From Gemmatimonas sp. (lineage in GTDB: Bacteria; Gemmatimonadota; Gemmatimonadetes; Gemmatimonadales; Gemmatimonadaceae): a stretch of DNA of 38,472 bases. The stretch is taken from assembly GCA_021154285.1 (NCBI GenBank), contig JAJKIV010000163.1, positions 1-38,472 on the forward strand, read 5' to 3'. Positions 26,585-28,136 of the stretch are shown here, in pieces (the stretch's first letter is position 1; each line of letters begins with the position of its first letter). Below the pieces are notes generated by a model. It was not told the DNA's origin, searched no databases, and saw only the letters and a list, made by a program, of their open reading frames with translations. The position numbers and the translations under genes were made by a program.

Positions 26585-26998
26585 TCAGCGACGGCGGATC
26601 GAGGGCGGCGACGCCATCGTCCGAAGCTCGCGGGCCTCATAGAGGCACGTCGCCACGACGATCTGCGTCACCAGGAGCAGCCCGCCAACGGCGAGCGCGA
26701 GCAGGCCGGGCCTGCCTAACGTTGAAGCGTCCGGTCCGACGAGACGCGCGATCGCGACGACGGCGTTGAAGAGCACGTAGGCGCTCAGCAACGCCGCGAC
26801 GTACCAGACCTGACGGTTCGGTCGTCCGAGCCGCAGGCAGATCGCTCCGGCGAGGAGCGCCGTGCCGATCCAGTGCGCGAACAGCACGATCGCCGGTCCG
26901 CGCAGCGGAAACTGGATCCCGAATGCCAGGACGATCGCGATGACCGCGTAGACCCCCTCGGCGTACCGGGCGGTGCGGAGTGCCGTACTCGTCGTCAA
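26585..26998 (-). CDS. four-helix hypothetical membrane protein
   Basis: 137 residues with four hydrophobic segments: GVYAVIAIVLAFGIQF, PAIVLFAHWIGTALLAGAIC, VWYVAALLSAYVLFNAVVAI and LLALAVGGLLLVTQIVVAT. The best start is TTG at 26998, as no ATG or GTG occurs early in the frame. It has no recognised family and no catalytic motif. The start lies 10 bases after the TAA that would end the OsmC gene if its UGA is read through, which is operon-like spacing. Confidence 0.65.
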   Translation of the reverse strand: MTTSTALRTARYAEGVYAVIAIVLAFGIQFPLRGPAIVLFAHWIGTALLAGAICLRLGRPNRQVWYVAALLSAYVLFNAVVAIARLVGPDASTLGRPGLLALAVGGLLLVTQIVVATCLYEARELRTMASPPSIRRR

Positions 26999-27008
26999 GC
27001 GAAGCTCG

Positions 27009-27458
27009 TTAGGCCTCGACCGTGTAGTCCACCTTCACGTCGGCGACCGCGACCGCGATCGTTCCGAAGAGCGGTCACCGGCGCTTGAATCCTTCCACCA
27101 GGGCCGCGGCGCGCGCGGCGTCCGTGCCGGACAGCACGAACCGCAACTGAACGGAGTTGAATATCGTGAAGTCGGTGCGCGGCTGGTTGCCGCGGTCGAC
27201 GGTGGCGGTCAGCGTGGCAGCAACGTGACGGAGGGGAACGCCGTCCGCCTTGGCGATCACCTGGAGCAGCTCGACGCCGCAGGACGCGACGCCGGCCAGA
27301 TATGCCTCGGGTGGCGTCACCTCTTCGCCGGGACACCCGTTCTGGACGGGGCCATCGATGATGAAGTGATGATCGCGCGCGTTGCAGAGCACTCGCCCAA
27401 AGACGTCGGTCGAGCGGGCACGAACCTCGTATTCACGAATGGGCTGAGGGGCGGTCAT
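27009..27458 (-). CDS. OsmC-family peroxidase-like protein with in-frame UGA (candidate selenoprotein)
   Basis: OsmC/Ohr-type thiol peroxidases reduce organic hydroperoxides with two cysteines. The first is Cys60 in LAGVASCGVELLQVIAKADG. With a standard code the protein stops at UGA 27077-27075 after GFKRR (127 residues). The same frame continues as PLFGTIAVAVADVKVDYTVE plus Ala to TAA at 27009, which is the normal family C-terminus. UGA (codon 128) sits where family members have the second catalytic Cys (KRRCPL; Cys125 in E. coli OsmC). Options are selenocysteine, a nonsense mutation (UGC to UGA is one change) or a sequencing error. A stem of GACCGC (27076-27071) with GCGGTC (27056-27051) can form at the UGA. 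ATG 27458 is clear. Confidence 0.75.
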
Positions 27459-27482
27459 TGCACGAGTGCTGGAGTCATAGCC

Positions 27483-27636
27483 GGATCAAAAGGGGCAGAG
27501 CGGATCAAGGGGTCAGAGCCCTTGAAATCTCGGACCTCGATTTTCATTGAGATCACAAATTTTCAAGGGCTCTGACCCCTTGATCCCCCCTTGATCCAAG
27601 AGATCTCGAATCAAACGACTCTGACCCCTTTGATCC
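27483..27636. repeat. nested GGGGTCAGAG inverted repeats
   Basis: Inner arms 27502-27527 and 27561-27586 are 26-bp perfect reverse complements containing CAAGGGGTCAGAGCCCTTG. Outer imperfect arms lie at 27483-27500 and 27619-27636 (GGATCAAAGGGGTCAGAG-type). It fills the spacer between the DinB gene stop (27636) and the OsmC start (27458), with the stop codon at its edge. Same family as 35270-35326. Confidence 0.8.
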
Positions 27637-28136
27637 TAGTCGAACTCAAATCTCGGTGCGGCCTGCTCGGCCGTCACTCGCCCGGGCACGATCTCGGCGA
27701 TCGCGTAATTCTCCGAGCGAACCGGCGCGCTCGCGAGCCGACGCAGCATCATGATCTGGCCTACGTGCGTCAGCCCGTCAGCGACCGGGCCCTGCAGCAG
27801 CTTCTCGGTCTTGCAGCCAAGCGGCCGGTCGGTCGCGAGGTACTCATCCAGGCGAGTGAGCGCGGAGAAAAAGCGAGCCGACTCCGCGTCCCAAGTTCCC
27901 GGCGTAGCGACGTTCCACTTCTGATTACCCTCCGCCAGCGAAACTCCCCACTCGAGCAGATCGCCGAGGTGCGCGAGGATCTGCAGTGGGCTCCGCGTCG
28001 CGTCACCCACTCGAAAATCAGCGAGCTCGGGAGGGGCGTTGCGGATTGCCTTGGCGCCGCGATACGCCAGCGTGGCCACCGCGTGCCGAAGCAGCTCGCG
28101 TTTGCCGAGTGCGATGTCGTTCGAGGGTTCAGTCAT
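27636..28136 (-). CDS. DinB-fold protein
   Basis: 166 residues. DinB bundle with RSPLQILAHLGDLLEWGVSL (first His) and GPVADGLTHVGQIMMLRRLA (HxxQ-type second site) and an LLRHAVATLAYRGAKAI first helix. The sequence around Asn-Tyr-Ala-Ile near the C-terminus (SENYAIAEIVPGRV) is typical of a short-chain DinB subgroup found in soil bacteria. Reaction unknown. Its ATG overlaps the stop of the EF-Tu-like gene by one base (TAATG). It is followed by the nested repeat at 27483-27636. Confidence 0.85.
   Translation of the reverse strand: MTEPSNDIALGKRELLRHAVATLAYRGAKAIRNAPPELADFRVGDATRSPLQILAHLGDLLEWGVSLAEGNQKWNVATPGTWDAESARFFSALTRLDEYLATDRPLGCKTEKLLQGPVADGLTHVGQIMMLRRLASAPVRSENYAIAEIVPGRVTAEQAAPRFEFD

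Follow-up and report, generated by a model that had tools for sequence, protein, structure and literature searches.

A putative selenoprotein of the OsmC/Ohr superfamily from Gemmatimonadaceae with UGA at the second catalytic cysteine position

OsmC-like selenoproteins came to light in 2005 in the Sargasso Sea; their motif is UxxT (PMC1088965; also PMC2398784, PMC9312934), under which reviews published in 2022 and 2026 still list them. In Ohr, the peroxidatic Cys is oxidized to a sulfenic acid, which then condenses with the resolving Cys125; the disulfide so formed is reduced by lipoylated proteins (PMC5962072). Here, we examine a gene on contig 163 of a Gemmatimonas sp. metagenome-assembled genome (MAG; 5.69 Mb in 488 contigs, 77.9% complete), using "the window" for the whole stretch of DNA that was analysed (38,472 nucleotides). 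The gene resembles both systems, and its UGA stands at the second of the two catalytic Cys positions. Taking together the frame, the conserved UGA, a hairpin with compensatory changes, the selenocysteine (Sec) machinery, the family assignment and the existence of Cys homologues, we put the probability that this is an OsmC/Ohr-superfamily selenoprotein, encoded through its UGA, at about 0.95.

An OsmC-family frame with UGA at codon 128

The candidate gene lies on the minus strand at 27009–27458 and runs from an ATG start to a TAA stop (27011–27009). Read from 27458 to 27009, it gives MTAPQPIREYEVRARSTDVFGRVLC...GFKRR-UGA-PLFGTIAVAVADVKVDYTVEA-TAA, in which a single UGA, at codon 128 (27075–27077), interrupts a frame of 149 amino acids. 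The frame and its coordinates, the codon of the UGA, the TAA and Cys60 are all as the original prediction gave them, and so are the distances to the next open reading frame, whose TTG start at 26998 is 10 bases away with read-through and 76 without it. That next frame (26585–26998) encodes a membrane-protein-like product of 137 amino acids with no Pfam match. In both genomes of genus g34 (L022, L024), osmC is followed, some 10 bases beyond its stop, by the start of an msrA-like gene (GGCFWC); genera other than g34 have different neighbours downstream of osmC. On the other side of the gene, a palindromic interspersed repeat of the AAGGGGTCAGAGCCCTT type (27478–27640; 122 matches genome-wide) contains a tRNA-Leu call by ARAGORN (27514–27606), which is unconfirmed by Rfam and probably false.

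Membership of the OsmC family, proposed from the frame itself, is borne out by Pfam PF02566, which scores 42.1 bits against a gathering cut-off of 27.5 over residues 44–135, a match that spans the UGA. The AlphaFold model is confident and OsmC-like (pLDDT 84.8, pTM 0.80), its best matches among solved structures are OsmC and Ohr proteins (best E 1e-6), and the segment beyond the UGA contributes helix 129–137 and the final strand. In sequence alignments to Ohr chains from the PDB, Cys60 (27279–27281, minus strand) aligns with the peroxidatic Cys and residue 128 with its resolving partner in the CP motif, placing the UGA in the column of the second catalytic Cys, as had been predicted; two homologues have TGC at this codon. 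Glu51 (27306–27308, minus strand) occupies the place of Ohr Glu51, with a role that we infer from PMC5962072, and is invariant in all 14 homologues, as are Cys60 and Arg22 (27393–27395, minus strand). Within the Ohr catalytic set, Cys60, Glu51 and residue 128 align, and Arg22 is a possible counterpart of the catalytic Arg, as a candidate only.

By analogy with Ohr, Cys60 would act as the peroxidatic thiol, reducing an organic hydroperoxide, and Sec128 would be the resolving residue, attacking the Cys60 sulfenic acid to form a Cys60–Sec128 selenenylsulfide that a thiol reductant (a lipoylated protein or another) would then open. Because of the Ohr cycle and the Cys alignments, this passage from sulfenic acid through selenenylsulfide to reduction appears to be the most likely cycle, and we hold it with moderate confidence.

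A rival reading competes with this mechanism and not with the selenoprotein call, namely that the roles are reversed, with Sec128 attacking and Cys60 resolving, or that the protein has a function other than hydroperoxide reduction. Sec in selenoenzymes usually does the attacking, the protein scores far below the Ohr cut-off (28.4 vs 88.85 bits), and its catalytic Arg is not firmly placed, all of which lend weight to such a reading. However, Cys60 and Glu51 are invariant and are placed like the peroxidatic Cys and the Glu of Ohr, and the msrA-like gene directly downstream in two genomes provides an oxidative-repair context. On these grounds, we consider reversed roles or a different function unlikely, although still a serious contender, and retain the cycle with a peroxidatic Cys60 and a resolving Sec128.

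Conservation of the UGA and of a downstream hairpin

Twelve genomes have UGA at this codon of the gene, namely that of the window, ten others of the same family and Anaeromyxobacter soli. In a set of 99 relatives, full-length homologues containing a single TGA come from eight genomes of the same family; a phylum sample contributed L032 and L033, which have TGA, and L034, which has Cys, and a scan of named genomes yielded one relative only, that of A. soli (L017), with TGA. Protein identity to the window is 56–68% for the 11 further UGA genomes and 52–68% for the homologues as a whole. All 12 UGA sequences share the motif KR[RL]-U-PL[FY]G, and in each the C-terminus continues in frame after the UGA. 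Homologues either keep the in-frame UGA or have Cys in its place, a pattern that serves as a criterion for selenoproteins, and we read the conservation of UGA at one codon across 12 genomes as more than chance. The tree places the Anaeromyxobacter gene among genes of the window's family, and 145 genomes of the Anaeromyxobacter order held no second close relative besides A. soli; together, these two observations suggest transfer of the gene.

Were the UGA an ordinary stop, the functional product would be a truncated protein of 127 amino acids and the similarity downstream a relic, and UGA does serve as a stop at other places in these genomes (L019–L021 end in TGA). However, the downstream codons are in frame and conserved in the 12 genomes, where synonymous exceeds nonsynonymous change (pN/pS 0.57). 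The Cys homologues retain the residue, truncation would remove helix 129–137 and the last strand, and a relic would not have its UGA preserved in different genera together with a hairpin that pairs. The original prediction had also considered that homologues might end naturally at this point; their proteins run on past codon 128 in all UGA genomes. We therefore regard an ordinary stop as very improbable and continue with the selenoprotein reading.

Bacterial SECIS elements are described as having a loop of 3–9 nt with G in the first two loop positions, a stem of 4–16 bp, a spacing of 16–37 nt and an energy of at most −7.5 kcal/mol (PMC13188914). Counting from the UGA, the homologues align gap-free over 48 nt, and this stretch contains a consensus hairpin of 6 bp, GGUCGC-GGUC-GCGACC, which begins 15 nt past the UGA and sets the apical loop at a spacing of 20 nt. 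In the window, the apical hairpin lies on the minus strand at 27045–27060 (arms GAUCGC at 27060–27055 and GCGGUC at 27050–27045, loop GGUC at 27054–27051) and is lengthened by an extra pair, C27061–G27044. With a 4-nt loop starting GG, a 6-bp stem, a 20-nt spacing and energies of −8.1 to −13.1 kcal/mol for the 22-nt hairpin (−10.5 kcal/mol for the window copy), the search for a SECIS after the UGA recovers an element within the published bacterial constraints. The original prediction had pointed to other stems, whose letters are indeed present and which are not the conserved element; a stem GACCGC/GCGGTC at the UGA and a hairpin at 27061–27049 were both set aside, the conserved, covarying hairpin being that at 27060–27045. 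The latter may have been overlooked because the window copy includes one U-G pair.

Pairing in this hairpin is standard in 72 of 72 base-pair cells across the 12 UGA sequences, with two compensatory double changes: the window has A-U for G-C, and L026 has U-A for C-G. Slid controls, in which the partner was moved by 1–3 columns, were 28–65% paired, and the observed covariation was reached in 14 of 500 shuffles of the 12 UGA sequences. Synonymous codon choice hardly varies precisely where the hairpin lies: codon identity averages 0.94 for codons 133–138 vs 0.50 for the other scored codons, which puts them first among the 94 six-codon runs (P about 3e-6 by permutation); relatedness does not explain this freeze because all codons are compared on one and the same tree. 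The fold energy of the hairpin region in the window is unremarkable for a GC-rich sequence (z = −0.61), with 10% of synonymous reshuffles folding as well, and an Rfam search of the window returned nothing at gathering scores. Since single-sequence fold energy is uninformative here, the case for a SECIS rests on conservation. In the proposed decoding, SelB and Sec-tRNA-Sec would bind the hairpin 20 nt past the UGA, Sec128 would be inserted in place of termination, and read-through would yield the full-length protein of 149 amino acids.

Selenocysteine machinery and cysteine homologues

The assembly that carries the window also carries tRNA-Sec (73.2 bits; anticodon TCA according to ARAGORN) in two places (C142 and C432), SelB (C106; 342 bits in frame, cut-off 242), SelA (C301; 552.7 bits) and SelD (C142; 376.6 bits), the last with an in-frame UGA of its own. 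The presence of selA, selB, selC and selD in the genome, which the original prediction had left to be checked, is thus established, and because selA, selB, selD and tRNA-Sec are all in the assembly, UGA is most likely read as Sec in the host organism. The selD gene (L047; G000, C142, 10086–11006) has its UGA in CAG-U-ASKMG, together with a GGGUC..GACCU hairpin, and is directly followed by tRNA-Sec; osmC is not the sole selenoprotein candidate of this genome. Among the eight UGA-bearing genomes in the set of 99 relatives, seven have SelA above the cut-off and the eighth (72% complete) has a fragment only. As SelA occurs in 67 of the 99 genomes anyway, its co-occurrence with the UGA is consistent with Sec decoding rather than strong evidence for it. 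SelA and SelB above the cut-off were not recovered from two UGA-bearing MAGs (G037 and G274), both of which are fragmented assemblies.

The inserted residue cannot be read from sequence alone, and it is conceivable that a near-cognate tRNA (e.g., that for Trp) reads the UGA, or that readthrough gives two products, neither of them with Sec. Homologues, however, show Cys at codon 128 and not Trp or others, residue 128 aligns with a catalytic Cys of Ohr, and the gene has a SECIS-like hairpin in a genome with the complete Sec machinery, which makes decoding as anything but Sec highly implausible. A sequencing or assembly error, with TGC or TGT misread as TGA in a fragmented MAG (488 contigs, 78% complete), is excluded, because eleven independent genomes have TGA at codon 128 and the homologues sit at 52–68% protein identity. 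The original prediction of a selenoprotein is thereby supported, and of the refuting conditions that it listed, none held among those accessible in silico.

The two homologues with the Cys codon TGC at the UGA position are L027 (genome G028) and L034 (genome G244). The hairpin is abolished at L027, where the same pairs come to +2.8 kcal/mol. The surroundings of L027 show synteny with those of L026 and L033, two UGA-bearing loci from its own genus, and the tree unites the three (support 93/87). At L034, the GGUC loop and five pairs are kept and the outer pair is broken; this remnant is possibly a SECIS fossil. By profile score, the L034 genome has no SelB above the cut-off. Both loci look like Sec-to-Cys replacements, L034 with a fading SECIS, in a direction that we infer. 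Such substitutions are called rare in a 2026 review, and the subfamily appears to show a change from Sec to Cys accompanied by SECIS loss.

Position of selenocysteine among OsmC and Ohr proteins

The window protein resembles the UxxT selenoproteins of the Sargasso Sea and GOS data and those of NCBIfam NF041052 ("OsmC-related (seleno)protein") in belonging to the OsmC family, in having UGA for a catalytic Cys and in having a bacterial SECIS behind it. It differs from the UxxT proteins in its motif, U-P-L-F/Y-G-T (UPLFGT; UPLYGT in relatives), located at the second Cys, and its NF041052 score of 27.8 bits is below the cut-off of 95. The only NF041052 protein above that cut-off in 395 genomes (L059, 95.6 bits) has CYMT, a CxxT motif, at the first Cys and no CxxT at the second; therefore, the Sec of UxxT in the known OsmC selenoproteins is probably at the first Cys. 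With Ohr (organic hydroperoxide resistance protein, e.g., that of X. fastidiosa; PDB 6uhw, 1zb9, 9jx6), the window protein shares the fold, the positions of the peroxidatic Cys and Glu, and the CP motif of the second Cys, but whereas Cys125 is the resolving residue of Ohr, the window protein would have Sec instead. Its score with the Ohr family TIGR03561 (28.4 bits) is under the curated cut-off of 88.85, and its identity to solved OsmC/Ohr structures is roughly 11–23%. Because it is below both cut-offs and has its Sec motif at the second Cys, we place it, on sequence grounds, as an OsmC-superfamily selenoprotein outside NF041052 and TIGR03561.

A separate OsmC selenoprotein candidate occurs in 13 genomes (L089–L101) of a sister family in the same order (f2). 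Like the window protein, it combines OsmC-family membership, the same phylum, a UGA and a hairpin, here conserved as UCGCGC-UGUAU/C-GCGCGA. It differs in belonging to another subfamily, which would carry its Sec in place of the first Cys (LGA-U-[TM]SMTIALYARR) and which keeps Cys in KCPVHRTL.

A literature search, with most subscription journals outside its reach, returned no OsmC selenoprotein described from the window's lineage. While OsmC selenoproteins themselves are already known, the subfamily and the placement of Sec at the second (resolving) position are apparently new. An annotation that stops at the UGA would omit an active-site residue. We somewhat favour an undescribed OsmC subfamily in which Sec resolves and Cys is peroxidatic, opposite to the usual arrangement, and which would cycle via a selenenylsulfide formed from the resolving selenol. 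If this is true, then, with the f2 group, one phylum has used each of the two catalytic positions of a single fold for Sec, and two lineages have later reverted to Cys, with the SECIS lost or eroded. The subfamily offers a natural comparison, between Sec at the first and at the second position and with Cys homologues at hand, of the benefit that Sec brings when it acts as the resolving residue.
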